Source: a virus
Virus record (IMG/VR): IMGVR_UViG_3300000101_000094
Span: 1-30,543 of that record
Reading direction: 5' to 3' (one strand)
Length of the DNA stretch: 30,543 bases
The notes beneath the pieces were generated by a model, which searched no databases, was not told where the DNA came from, and saw nothing but the letters and a program-made list of their open reading frames with translations. The translations under genes were made by a program, and so were the position numbers. Positions 5,676 to 29,724 of this stretch are shown here, one piece after another; the stretch's first letter is position 1; the number at the start of each line of letters is the position of its first letter.

Positions 5676-5914
5676 TGAACATTAGAGATAGAAATATTAC
5701 AATACTTAAAAATAATTTAAACGGTGACGATAAGATTACTATAAGTAGAACAATCTCAGATATAGAAAACTTAACTGTATTTGTGCATTATAAAAAACAA
5801 TGTGAGTCAATAAGCCATTGGACTGTTGGTGAGTTCTTAGATTTTGTTGAGAATGAATTACACTTCACCCAATACAGAGATGTTCTAAAAGTTGTTAACC
5901 GGCAGCGAAACTAG
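5675..5914 (+). CDS. Hypothetical protein (79 aa)
   Basis: Starts at a TAATG overlap with the PiT gene. A 79-residue soluble protein with no recognised family; its C-terminal half ([27 protein letters not shown]) looks helical. Its last 20 bases overlap the end of the minus-strand erpA gene, so the two transcription units converge with no spacer. No obvious terminator lies between them. Confidence 0.6.
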
Positions 5915-6299
5915 AACCACACCCACAAGTTGCTTTGGCGTTTGGATTTCTTATTACAAATTGTGACCCATTAAGATCATCTTTATAATAGATTTCTGAA
6001 CCAACCAAGTAACCATAACTCATACTATCTACTAACATAGTGACACCAAACTTTTCTACTTTAGTATCATCTTCTTCTATCTCTTCAGCAAAAGAAAAGC
6101 CATATTGAAATCCAGAACATCCTCCTCCTTGTACAAATACTCTTAACATCATTCGAGAAGCTTCTTCACCACTTTCCCTAATTAATTCTTTTACTTTTTT
6201 AGCTGCACTCTCAGCAAGTACAAATGGAACCGGCATTTCTTGTTCTGGCATTTTTGCTAAAGGATCCATCAATTGTAATGTTTCTTGATTAACTTCCAT
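5895..6299 (-). CDS. erpA: ErpA/IscA-type iron-sulfur cluster insertion protein
   Basis: 134 residues of the A-type Fe-S carrier family. The three invariant cysteines are present: C61 in [11 protein letters not shown] and C125/C127 in TCGCGSSFA. The QFVIRNPNA segment before the CxC is typical of ErpA from beta/gammaproteobacteria rather than generic SufA. A-type carriers accept Fe-S clusters from a scaffold and pass them to apo-enzymes in the cytoplasm. The first 25 residues are an extra N-terminal extension. AAAGGA precedes the start, and the gene overlaps the upstream gene's stop by 11 nt. Last gene of the minus-strand operon and a likely host-derived metabolic gene. Confidence 0.88.
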
Positions 6300-24235: not shown

Positions 24236-24259
24236 CCCCGCTTCGGCGGGGTTTTTTTT
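24236..24259 (+). terminator. Rho-independent terminator after gp32
   Basis: GC stem ccccgc/gcgggg (24236-24241 with 24246-24251), TTCG tetraloop, then eight T (24252-24259). Same six-base stem as the pqqA terminator. It overlaps the end of the convergent tail lysozyme gene by two bases. A weaker hairpin (GTTCA/TGAAC, about 24213-24227) precedes it. Confidence 0.93.
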
Positions 24260-25898
24260 AGGCGTAATTTTCTGATGGGTTTATACTAGAATTATCTTTT
24301 GCAATAACATCATTTTGCACATTAAGGCTTCTATTATTGTTTGATATATTGTTTACAATCATAGGTGTTTTTGGTTTTCTTTGTTGACTATGAGCCGCAC
24401 TAATTGATGATGAACCTGAAGCAATATCATCACCAGTTGGTCCTTTTATATCACCTTGTTCAATCATTGCAACTATTTTTGGTGCTCTTATACCAACTTG
24501 TCCATACCATTGACTATCTTCAAGACCTCTTGCAGCTGCTGTAAAATTACCCTCTCTCAAAGCCTTAGATGTAACTGGCCATTCTGGCCACCATTTACCC
24601 ATGTTGAAACCTAAATCTATCATAGCTGCTTGACCAGTATAATTAGCTTTATTATAACCAGGTGTTCTCTCAGCTATTTTTTTATGATGAGCATAATCTT
24701 CTTCAAACATTTCATCAATTTCTTGTTTACTAAATTTTCTATTCATACTATCGGGTAAAGATTTACCATCACCAATTAAATGTCCATAACCAATGGTCCA
24801 TAAACCCTCTGAATCTTTATATGGTTTATCACGGTAACCTTCGTGTTGTTTAATCATTGCTTTAATATCTTCATCACCAATTATTTTTGTAACCGTTTTT
24901 TTCTTTGCAGGATCTTCAGTTATAGGTGTTGGTTTTGTTTTTGGTTCTTTTACACCAGATTCTTCTTGTATCTCTTCAATTGCTTTAAGTTTTCTTTCAA
25001 GTTTTAATTCAATAAGTCTTTGGTTTGCTTCTTCTTGTAATCTGGCTCTTATCTTTGCATCTTCACCTCTAGCTCCAATTTTTTCAAAAAAAGATACATC
25101 TATTAATTTATCCTCTCTTTTTAATTCTCGTATGACTTGTTTTCTAAGTTTTTTTCTTCGTCTTTCTGATACCTCTTTCTTTTTTTCTTGTTCAGTTTTT
25201 GGTATAATTAAATCGGCAAAAGGAATTTTTTTTATTGCAGACATTACTAATTCATACCCTTTTTTAAGTAAATTTACAACAGGGCTAAAAAAATTAACAA
25301 CCTTAGAAAACATTGCTGTTACTCTTTCTCCTATTTTACTAAAAAACTCACCTACATTCTCAGCAAAATCTTCATATAACGGCTTAACTTTTTCTTTTAA
25401 ACTTTCAACTGCATTTATAAAAACGTCTTTTATTTTTTGAGTATATTCTGTAAATTTTTCTTTAAGTATTTTAGGAATATCTTTCATTGTTTCCATTATT
25501 TCATCTTTAAAATTTTTAAAGACAACTGCCATAAGACCACCGATGGCTAAAACACCAACTAATATTTTAAATATTTTACCAGGTTTTAACATATCTTTTA
25601 ATGATTCAAAGAAACTTTTTTTCTTTTTACCACTTGTTACTTGAGTTACACCTTCATCTTTACCTAATTCAACTTCTAATTTCTTCTCTCTCTCTTCTTC
25701 TTTTAAAAAGAAAGCATCTTGTTTTTTAGATGGGTCAACATCTCTACCTTCTAAAACTATTGCTAGATTTTGACCTGCGACATTCAAATCTCTGGCTATA
25801 CCAGAGAGAGCCATAAAGTTTTCACCAATACTTTTTAATACTTTTTCTTTTTCGGAGGTATTTTTTTCTACGTTATCTAAAAGGTCTTTAAGTGCCAT
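24258..25898 (-). CDS. Tape-measure paralogue with GH24 lysozyme domain
   Basis: 546 residues. The N-terminal 80 (KVLKSIGENFMALSGIARDLNV) repeats the region of the upstream 548-aa protein; then a membrane-like segment (about 110-127), helical tape-like region, and a T4-lysozyme-type domain (about 340-487). The catalytic triad is E353, D362, T368 with the same spacing as E11/D20/T26 of T4 lysozyme; WYGQVGIRAPKIVAMIE ends it. A Ser/Asn-rich tail follows. It probably digests peptidoglycan when the tail penetrates; in T4 this function is in gp5. It overlaps the upstream gene by one base. Confidence 0.72.
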   Translation of the reverse strand: MALKDLLDNVEKNTSEKEKVLKSIGENFMALSGIARDLNVAGQNLAIVLEGRDVDPSKKQDAFFLKEEEREKKLEVELGKDEGVTQVTSGKKKKSFFESLKDMLKPGKIFKILVGVLAIGGLMAVVFKNFKDEIMETMKDIPKILKEKFTEYTQKIKDVFINAVESLKEKVKPLYEDFAENVGEFFSKIGERVTAMFSKVVNFFSPVVNLLKKGYELVMSAIKKIPFADLIIPKTEQEKKKEVSERRRKKLRKQVIRELKREDKLIDVSFFEKIGARGEDAKIRARLQEEANQRLIELKLERKLKAIEEIQEESGVKEPKTKPTPITEDPAKKKTVTKIIGDEDIKAMIKQHEGYRDKPYKDSEGLWTIGYGHLIGDGKSLPDSMNRKFSKQEIDEMFEEDYAHHKKIAERTPGYNKANYTGQAAMIDLGFNMGKWWPEWPVTSKALREGNFTAAARGLEDSQWYGQVGIRAPKIVAMIEQGDIKGPTGDDIASGSSSISAAHSQQRKPKTPMIVNNISNNNRSLNVQNDVIAKDNSSINPSENYA

Positions 25899-27544
25899 TA
25901 GATTGCTACCCCTAACGCCTTATTTAATGTTGAATCGTAAACATCAGCAGGTTTGCCTTTGCCACCACCACCTGTACTACCTTGACTATTATTATTAATA
26001 ATACGGTTCATCATATCACCTATATCAGGAACAGATTCCATTCTTTGACTTTCAGATAATTGAGATGATTTTTGATTCATTTGACTTCCGCTTGATGGTT
26101 CTGGAGGTGGGACTTCTACTGGCTTCATATTATAAGTATCGCTTGTGGTAGGCGTGTTCATACTCGACCCAAAATTCTTAAACATATTAGTGAGAGAGTC
26201 ATTTGTTTGTTGCACATTTTCAGCTCTTGATTCTAGTGTTGATTCTTGACCTTTAAATCCACTAAATTTTTGTGACAAATTTCCCATCATGTCCATAATA
26301 CCTTGCTGTTTATTGGGAGAATCTCTTAATTGTTGCACACCAACTTTAAGTTCATTTACAACTGCATCTTGATCTATATTATTTTCAGATGATACTGGTG
26401 ATGATCTTTCTAAATTTGATGGGGAATAAGATACATTAACAGCACCAGTTTCCTCTGTGGTTGGTGTTTCAGCTGATTGTATATTCTCTTTTATTTCCTC
26501 TTTGGTTGGTGTTTCAGCTGATTGTATATTCTCTTTTATTTCCTCTTCACTTATGTCAGCATCAATAGCAGGTGGTGTTGGCACACTATCTGTATCTATC
26601 GTTTGATCTGGTCCACTTTTAATTTGCATATCATCAGGTAATACTTTATTGAGAGTTTCTATTATGAAGTTTTTAAAACTATTAAATATCTCTGAAATTT
26701 TATTAAAAATAGGATTAAAAAATGTTTCTATCTTACCATATATGTTTTCAAGCGTTTCCCTACCAAAAAATCCAAATGTGAGAAATTTTAATATACCGCC
26801 AAGGCCTGCCATAATAGCGCTCTTTAGACTCCCAGTTTCTTTATAATCTTCAATAGCATCTGTAAAAAATTTAAATAAACCAAGAACTATTGTAACTGGA
26901 AGAAAAGCTCTTTTGCCCACATTCAAAGCTCCTTTAAGAACTTTTTTTAACATTGCTTTAGAAAATATTTTTTTAAGAGCTGCCTTAATCCCATTACCGA
27001 TTGCTCTAATCATGCCAAAAATACCACCACCGCTCTTAGCATCACCAGCTTCTTTTTCAACCACTTTTTCTGGTCCACCAGTTTGTGCCTCTAAATCAGC
27101 TTCTCTTTGATCTTGTGTCTTAAAAAATTCATCAGCACCAGTTTTCTTTTCACCGCCTTCAATCTTTACGAGCTTTTGCATATTTTGTCTTAACACATTT
27201 ACATCACGAGCAATTCCTGGTAAAGACATTGAATTTTGTGCTATACTTTTCAATATAGACATTTCTTTAGCTGAACCCTCTTGAACGGCTTTAGTTACTT
27301 GAGTTACGGATCCTGCGAGTTCTTTTTTCTTAACATTATCATCTTTGTCTTTCCCACCACCAAGAGCTCTACGGCCTAATACTGAAATTATATCATCTCC
27401 AGGTAAAGCAGCTGATACTATACTTTTTCTACTAAATTTACCAGCAATATCTTTACCAACTCCTTTGGCTGCCGTGCCTAGACTACTTACAAGACCGCCA
27501 CCACCTTCTATGGATGACATATATTTTTTGGCAAAATCTACCAT
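25898..27544 (-). CDS. Tail tape-measure-like protein (gp29-type candidate)
   Basis: 548 residues, long and helical, with a hydrophobic middle (about 175-300, several membrane-prone helices) and a disordered Ser/Pro/Gln-rich C-terminal part, the usual make-up of tape-measure proteins. Residues 98-150 (ILKSIAQNSMSLPGIARDVNVLRQNM to FFKTQDQREADLEA) are shared with the following lysozyme protein. It immediately follows gp26 and the -1 frame ORF, the expected place of a tape measure. T4 gp29 is 590 aa. The identity is inferred from position and composition. Confidence 0.55.
   Translation of the reverse strand: MVDFAKKYMSSIEGGGGLVSSLGTAAKGVGKDIAGKFSRKSIVSAALPGDDIISVLGRRALGGGKDKDDNVKKKELAGSVTQVTKAVQEGSAKEMSILKSIAQNSMSLPGIARDVNVLRQNMQKLVKIEGGEKKTGADEFFKTQDQREADLEAQTGGPEKVVEKEAGDAKSGGGIFGMIRAIGNGIKAALKKIFSKAMLKKVLKGALNVGKRAFLPVTIVLGLFKFFTDAIEDYKETGSLKSAIMAGLGGILKFLTFGFFGRETLENIYGKIETFFNPIFNKISEIFNSFKNFIIETLNKVLPDDMQIKSGPDQTIDTDSVPTPPAIDADISEEEIKENIQSAETPTKEEIKENIQSAETPTTEETGAVNVSYSPSNLERSSPVSSENNIDQDAVVNELKVGVQQLRDSPNKQQGIMDMMGNLSQKFSGFKGQESTLESRAENVQQTNDSLTNMFKNFGSSMNTPTTSDTYNMKPVEVPPPEPSSGSQMNQKSSQLSESQRMESVPDIGDMMNRIINNNSQGSTGGGGKGKPADVYDSTLNKALGVAI
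26461..26546. repeat. Two 41-nt direct repeats within the tape-measure-like gene
   Basis: Copies at 26461-26501 and 26506-26546, offset 45 nt, encode two copies of EEIKENIQSAETPT in the linker (about residues 334-362). In-frame duplication, so it likely arose by slippage and extends a flexible linker. Confidence 0.7.
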
Positions 27545-27748
27545 TTATCTTCTAGCCTTATTCATTTGTTTTTGCATTTCTATTCTTTCATTTTCTTTTT
27601 TAATATGATCTGTAAGTAAATGAATATAAATGTTTCTCTCCCATGGCATCATATTTTCTAACTCAGTTAAACTGTATTTGTGGTACTGCATTAAAGCGAA
27701 GTTTGTTTCAAAATAATTCTTTAATGTATCATAACGAAAGATCAGACG
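27545..27748 (-). CDS. Overlapping -1 frame extension of gp26 (tail assembly chaperone T-like part)
   Basis: A stop-free frame of 67 codons starting at the gp26 slippery site and ending just before the tape-measure-like ATG. It has no ATG, GTG or TTG near its 5' end (CTG at 27745-27743 only; first ATG is 20 codons in). It encodes RLIFRYDTLKNYFETNFALMQ..., then SLTELENMMPWERNIYI and a charged helical tail. Related small proteins stand at this position in T4-like marine phages, and the LPWER-type motif recalls tail-chaperone C-terminal parts. Either a -1 frameshift fuses it to gp26 (about 304 aa) or a non-standard start is used. Confidence 0.65.
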   Translation of the reverse strand, partial: RLIFRYDTLKNYFETNFALMQYHKYSLTELENMMPWERNIYIHLLTDHIKKENERIEMQKQMNKARR

Positions 27749-28458
27749 AAAAAACTCTGTATACCTTTAACAGTAATATTTTCTTCATGACCGCACTTCT
27801 CACATTTAAAATCTAATTCTTTTTTAATTTCTGGCATTGTATCAAAAAAGTTTTTAAATTTTTCTAAATCTTTTTGTTGCATACTATCAACAAATTCTTC
27901 TAATTCTTTTGGTGTAGTATCTTTTGCATAATACACCTGATCTTCATCATAAACATAATCAATACAATCAATTAATATTTTCATCATGGCATCATTATCA
28001 TTTAATTGATCAACTTTTTCAAATATCTCAAAAGTTGGATATTTCAAACAAACACCTAGTTTATCAGTAAGAGGTATTTTATTTTCATGACCCTCATGTA
28101 TTGTGGGTTCAATTTCTAAAATGTTCACATCAAACTCTACAACATGATTACATTTTTTTTCTTCAACCATTTGATTACATTTATACTTCAGATTCACCAC
28201 TTCTTCGACTGATCTAGCTCTTAAATTCATAAAGAGATATTCCAAATCAAAAGATGGTAAACTGTTTACATCTATTTCATCAACAATACAGTTATTTAAA
28301 ACTTGTCTAATTGTTGATACCATTTCTTTGGAATCTTCAGACTCAGAAGCCATTAAAAATAATTTTTGCTCTTTGACCAAAAATGGTCTAAATTTTACTG
28401 CTTTGCCAGTTGATAAGAGTTTTACCTCAAATACCGGTGTATCTAACTTTGGTAACAT
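27742..28458 (-). CDS. 26: gp26-type baseplate/tail-assembly chaperone protein
   Basis: 238 residues of the T4 baseplate family (PF12322 type): LPKLDTPVFEVKLLSTGKAVKFRPFLVKEQK, YKCNQMVEEKKCNHVVEF with C94/C103, and a C-terminal CEKCGHEENITVKGIQSFF with C219/C222, probably a zinc site. T4 gp26 (208 aa) acts in hub assembly and is absent from the mature baseplate. It is followed by an overlapping -1 frame and then the tape-measure-like gene, the layout of lambda G/GT/H, so a tape-measure chaperone role is plausible. Ribosome binding site AAAGGTG. Confidence 0.78.
   Translation of the reverse strand: MLPKLDTPVFEVKLLSTGKAVKFRPFLVKEQKLFLMASESEDSKEMVSTIRQVLNNCIVDEIDVNSLPSFDLEYLFMNLRARSVEEVVNLKYKCNQMVEEKKCNHVVEFDVNILEIEPTIHEGHENKIPLTDKLGVCLKYPTFEIFEKVDQLNDNDAMMKILIDCIDYVYDEDQVYYAKDTTPKELEEFVDSMQQKDLEKFKNFFDTMPEIKKELDFKCEKCGHEENITVKGIQSFFV
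27748..27754 (-). promoter_or_regulatory. Slippery heptamer U-UUU-UUC for -1 frameshifting
   Basis: In gp26 frame the end reads AGT TTT TTC GTC TGA. The T-TTT-TTC heptamer has the X-XXY-YYZ form in the zero frame, with the stop codon one codon later, which would enhance slippage. A -1 shift enters the 67-codon frame downstream. Seen in sequence; use is inferred. Confidence 0.6.
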
Positions 28459-29307: not shown

Positions 29308-29724
29308 CTAAATGCCTAATTCTTTTTCAGTTACAATCTTAAATAACCACCCATGTTCACGACAAAATATATCGGCAGCTCGCCATTTCTCTTGATTTAT
29401 AGCATATGTAGCGGCTTCTTGTAGAAATTTTTTTGTTCTTCTTTTCTGTTTCGGTTTTTGAGTTTGATGAAATGGTTTCACTTCTATCATAAAAGTTTGT
29501 TCTTTTGTTTTTACAATAAAGTCTGGAAAATATCGGTGTACTCTTTCATCAATAGGTGATCTATAACGCACAAACAACTCTTCAGATGACCACCAGACCA
29601 CTTTTGGTTGATTATCTAAATATTTCATTACACGGAGTTCCCATGATGATCTATAAATGACATTATTTGGGTCACCTTTGTATTTCTTTGGGTTTTGGGG
29701 TCTAAATCGTCCTTTATATGACAT
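29308..29724 (-). CDS. 4: gp4, head completion protein
   Basis: 138 residues close to T4 gp4 (150 aa): SYKGRFRPQNPKKYKGDPNNVIYRSSWELRVMKYLD, WWSSEELFVRYRSPIDERVHRYFPDFIVK and FMIEVKP. The E...PDF...E-V-K pattern is that of PD-(D/E)XK/TnsA-like nucleases. gp4 acts on filled heads before tail joining, probably trimming DNA ends. Its start codon lies within the CATAAATA motif of divergent gp48. Confidence 0.85.
   Translation of the reverse strand: MSYKGRFRPQNPKKYKGDPNNVIYRSSWELRVMKYLDNQPKVVWWSSEELFVRYRSPIDERVHRYFPDFIVKTKEQTFMIEVKPFHQTQKPKQKRRTKKFLQEAATYAINQEKWRAADIFCREHGWLFKIVTEKELGI

Follow-up and report, generated by a model that had tools for sequence, protein, structure and literature searches.

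The gene 26 homologue of a marine T4-like phage and the open stretch that follows it in the -1 frame very probably form a single gene for a tail assembly chaperone of the G/GT type known from lambda, expressed by -1 frameshifting. We favour this reading because it is consistent with the gene layout, the slippery heptamer, the selection acting on the -1 frame and the homology to T4 gp51, and the same evidence supports the G/GT-like layout claimed in an earlier sequence-only reading of this DNA. The analysed stretch, called the window here, comprises 30,543 nt of record IMGVR_UViG_3300000101_000094, a 30.5-kb genome fragment. One gp26-like place lies within this fragment, and a second, full-length gp51 gene of the T4 type may lie elsewhere in the genome. 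The 238-residue gp26, the putative short chaperone form (TAC-N), is encoded on the minus strand at positions 28458-27742, and the 3' end of its gene reads AGT TTT TTC GTC TGA, as had been described. The heptamer T TTT TTC, of the X XXY YYZ form, occupies positions 27754-27748 in the gp26 frame, one codon ahead of the zero-frame stop TGA (27742-27744), in the phase required for tandem -1 slippage. By itself the heptamer is uninformative, since TTTTTTC is common in the AT-rich window (27 observed versus 22.7 expected occurrences), and its rarity was therefore rejected as evidence.

The informative feature is the conservation of the heptamer in related phages, which the sequence-only reading had proposed to examine by alignment. 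Scans of IMG/VR with queries from different clades and annotated phage genomes provided 257 gp26-bearing loci, including the window, and the gp26 stop was readable in 254 of them. Of the 254 loci, 250 have TTTTTTN in the correct phase with a single codon between it and the gp26 stop, as TTTTTTC in 240, TTTTTTA in seven and TTTTTTG in three. The two rarer variants turn the zero-frame phenylalanine into leucine, so that the X XXY YYZ form is retained despite the change of amino acid. Among other Phe-Phe pairs in open reading frames of the same loci, T.TTT.TTC was used in 16 of 370 (4.3%). Judged from the sequences, which come from related and not independent loci, the fixed position of the heptamer is far beyond chance against this background. 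The slip site lies at the same codon position in marine metagenome phages, cyanophages and phages of Rhizobium, Aeromonas, Vibrio and Cronobacter. Relatives that have an ATG start for the second frame and no conserved heptamer, which would speak against a slip, are not the prevailing pattern, as the heptamer is conserved and an early ATG is absent from most relatives. The four exceptions are the T4-type phages RB3 and Octan and the Ackermannviridae-like phages LIMEstone1 (locus L092) and Vibrio K441 (L087), the latter two of which have A ATT TTC and A CTT TTC, respectively, in place of the canonical heptamer. In both LIMEstone1 and Vibrio K441, the gp26 stop is closely followed by a start codon, which in LIMEstone1 overlaps the stop as TAATG. 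Lacking the canonical heptamer and having this start, they may produce the second piece by another route.

The -1 frame begins with CGT at position 27748, continues with CTG ATC TTT CGT and extends over 67 codons to the TAA at 27547-27545. The whole piece, designated TAC-C, thus lies at 27545-27748 on the minus strand, with a pN/pS of 0.16-0.18, and the predicted fusion product has a length of about 304 residues (237 + 67). The 250 heptamer-bearing loci were reduced to 103 representatives with less than 90% gp26 identity. The -1 frame is open across its first 50 codons in all 103 representatives, while both other frames contain stops in every one of them, and the first residue after the frame change is arginine in nearly all loci. 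Within the window's clade (28 representatives), pN/pS over codons 2-16 is 0.16 in the -1 frame and 2.28 and 1.05 in the other two frames; these 15 codons span the stretch from the gp26 stop to the first possible start shared in the clade. Within this clade no ATG precedes codons 18/19, and a TTG occurs at codon 8 in some of its members. Purifying selection upstream of any shared start is not explained by an independent start. On the evidence of substitution patterns in these sequences, the -1 frame is coding from the slip site onward. The frame had been described as 67 codons long and devoid of a standard start; the length is correct and the first 19 codons are indeed startless, but an internal ATG is present at position 27691, which opens a 48-residue reading frame.

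The internal ATG offers a start for a separate gp51, and the best-surviving alternative is that gp51 is a short independent protein, made after re-initiation or through internal initiation, and never fused to gp26. Starts of this kind occur in other lineages: in cyanophages of the S-PM2 type an ATG is found three codons into the frame, and the S-PM2 record annotates gp51 there, and Rhizobium phages and LIMEstone1 have overlapping TGATG or TAATG starts. We nevertheless regard a separate gp51 as improbable, because the conserved -1 coding begins directly at the heptamer, ahead of any shared start, and because the start positions vary between the groups whereas the heptamer is fixed. A protein initiated at 27691 would omit the conserved RLIFRYDTLKNYFETNFAL. 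Furthermore, the gp51 of T4-type phages is itself a full-length, fusion-like protein. In RB3 and Octan, gp51 combines an entire PF12322 domain (1-201/202) with a C-terminal tail piece homologous to the -1 product of the window, and gp26 is short, contains PF12322 alone and lacks the heptamer. The T4 type therefore has two genes, a short gp26 and a long gp51, where the window's kind has one gene and a slip; the separateness of T4 genes 26 and 51, which the sequence-only reading had taken as given, is confirmed in these two phages.

The reading as one frameshifted chaperone gene is also borne out by the protein families. The window gp26 matches PF12322 (T4_baseplate, E 4e-63) and residues 7-232 of the 282-residue baseplate hub profile phrog_150 (E 1.5e-67), and the -1 product matches residues 230-281 of the same profile (E 1.5e-7). 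The adjoining matches show that gp26 and the -1 product join seamlessly within one known family. In addition, the -1 product matches phrog_634, annotated as the "baseplate hub assembly catalyst" gp51 (E 9e-26). NCBIfam contains no family for gp26, and the sole sequence match among solved structures, a fimbrial fusion protein, was rejected as implausible. A phylogenetic tree groups T4 26 with the N-terminal domain of 51, weakly (74/64, long branches). The AlphaFold2 model of the window gp26 has a pLDDT of 87, and a BFVD search with it finds the T4-like gp26 family. Among the 50 matches listed in a fold search of the PDB, a probability above 0.1 is reached only by 3fgx, 3klu and the HK97 tail assembly chaperone 2ob9, and none of the matches is significant by E-value (0.88 for the best chaperone). 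The listing names only 2ob9 as a chaperone, and we take 3fgx and 3klu to be phage tail assembly chaperones as well.

A change of frame at the heptamer might instead be caused by RNA polymerase slipping on the run of six T residues, rather than by the ribosome. The run is present in AT-rich DNA, but its codon phase relative to the gp26 frame does not vary among the 250 loci that bear it, and only tandem slippage by the ribosome requires such a phase. Six residues are few for a polymerase to slip on efficiently, and we consider this explanation even less probable than a separately started gp51. That a sequencing or assembly error split one gene has a negligible probability, given that 250 loci from many different assemblies share the layout, those of the isolates S-PM2, Syn1, P-HM1 and Aeromonas Ah1 among them.

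Eight nucleotides upstream of the heptamer, a Shine-Dalgarno-like purine run, AAAGGT (27763-27768, minus strand), could pair with 16S rRNA and is a candidate 5' stimulator. Purine-rich runs are found at the equivalent site of relatives, as GAAGGA, GAGGGA and AAGGGT; the Lys-Gly codons of the run are conserved at the protein level too, as part of a conserved glycine motif. Downstream of the heptamer, single-sequence folding without pseudoknots detected no significant structure in the window (z +0.2), and consensus folding, also without pseudoknots, detected none in the window's clade. A strong hairpin is located a few nucleotides past the heptamer in several cyanophage groups. In Prochlorococcus-type phages (loci L093, L144 and L187 and their relatives) it has the form GCCCTC...GAGGGC and is a candidate stimulator. 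Because such hairpins are lineage-specific and restricted to some cyanophage groups, a conserved 3' hairpin was rejected as the stimulator. Stimulatory RNA structures 3' of a slippery site help frameshifting and are not required for it.

The -1 frame is directly followed by a gene encoding 548 residues (25898-27544, minus strand), the ATG of which (27544-27542) comes immediately after the TAA. In most loci, a large gene begins -17 to +3 nt from the -1 frame stop. The sequence-only reading had the frame end right before a tape-measure-like gene; the adjacency holds, but the label comes from the position, size and hydrophobic stretch of the product, and a family search returned no tape-measure match to it. 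The next gene (24258-25898, minus strand) encodes a 546-residue paralogue with a C-terminal phage lysozyme domain (PF00959, E 6e-13). The two products share a module of about 200 residues (hhalign E 8e-44; BLASTP E 4e-9), and a tandem pair of genes encoding about 520-710 residues each is conserved downstream in the window's clade. Neither product is clearly related to gp29 of RB3 (probability 11-16%), and either of the two may be the tape measure protein. On the other side of gp26, the window encodes a protein with a TnsA-like endonuclease domain (PF08722, E 4e-19; 29308-29724, minus strand) beside the tail genes, and in Synechococcus phage RN05-S an annotated TnsA-like endonuclease immediately precedes gp26. 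Elsewhere in this T4-like fragment there are a cytochrome c gene (PF00034; 6633-7004, minus strand) and an iron-sulphur cluster assembly gene (PF01521, Fe-S_biosyn; 5895-6299, minus strand), which are possibly host-derived metabolic genes.

Based on the arrangement of the slip site, the -1 frame and the gene that follows, a mechanism of expression can be proposed. Most ribosomes would stop at the TGA of gp26 and release the 238-residue TAC-N. A minority would slip back by one base on T TTT TTC, where both phenylalanine tRNAs can re-pair with UUU, and would continue into the -1 frame to produce the 304-residue fusion, TAC-NC, with the "gp51" piece at its C-terminus. The short and long forms would then cover the putative tape measure protein, the gene of which follows directly, and bring in the tail tube subunits. 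We infer that the slip takes place in vivo at some rate and that the products act as chaperones. By analogy with lambda (PMC5009743), the fusion is presumably the minority product, the tape measure protein is presumably the target of both forms, and the ratio between them probably matters. A point that runs counter to a chaperone role is that the gp26 of LIMEstone1, which is also one of the phages without the canonical heptamer, is annotated as a confirmed structural protein, whereas the lambda G and GT proteins are described as absent from virions (PMC5009743). We also speculate that in the marine clade slippage alone, perhaps together with the upstream Shine-Dalgarno-like run and with no conserved downstream structure, sets the chaperone ratio, and that the chaperone has two clients, tape-measure-like paralogues encoded in tandem, of which one carries a lysozyme domain; we hold this extended scenario to be rather unlikely.

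The closest known systems are the gp26/gp51 proteins of T4-like phages, which belong to the same families (PF12322; phrog_150/phrog_634) and have the same order of TAC-N followed by TAC-C. In T4 the short form (26) and the long form (51) are encoded separately, whereas the window has one gene and a slip. The slippery heptamer of lambda is G GGA AAG, unlike the T TTT TTC of the window; no sequence similarity between lambda G/GT and the window pair was shown, and the relation by fold, seen with a predicted model, is suggestive only. The abstract of the study by Vladimirov and colleagues reportedly names genes 26 and 51 and describes the frameshifting as conserved in several T4-like groups, T4's own not among them. 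In that study, gp26/gp51 were reportedly recognised as the tail assembly chaperones of this phage group (Vladimirov, Gautam and Davidson 2022, Virology 566:9-15). Citing that work, two later papers state that some T4-like phages encode the short form and the fusion in two different genes (PMC10885494) and that poly-T slippery sites occur in T4-like TAC-N genes (PMC12846349). The sequence-only reading had presented a link between T4 genes 26 and 51 and the lambda chaperone principle; the reading holds, but it is not new, as T4-like tail assembly chaperones were published in 2022.

The same arrangement bears on earlier annotations. In 2010, cyanophage gp51 was noted as missing about 200 N-terminal residues and Aeh1 as being without gp51 (PMC3037559), and gp26 together with the slip can supply the missing part in both cases. 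The heptamer is present in Aeromonas phage Ah1 (L086) and in two close relatives (L176 and L177), followed in each by the -1 frame, for which the Ah1 record has no annotated gene. Many records place gp51 at an arbitrary start or omit it, and these could be corrected. The tail assembly chaperone loci of Vandenendeviridae and Andersonviridae, such as that of phage Adele, likewise have a conserved -1 frameshift at a T-rich site ending TAC-N and a downstream open reading frame mis-annotated as a separate gene (PMC12846349); their slippery site is GTTTTT, whereas that of the window is TTTTTTC. Since frameshifted chaperones of T4-like phages have already been reported, the window locus is a real case of an already known kind.
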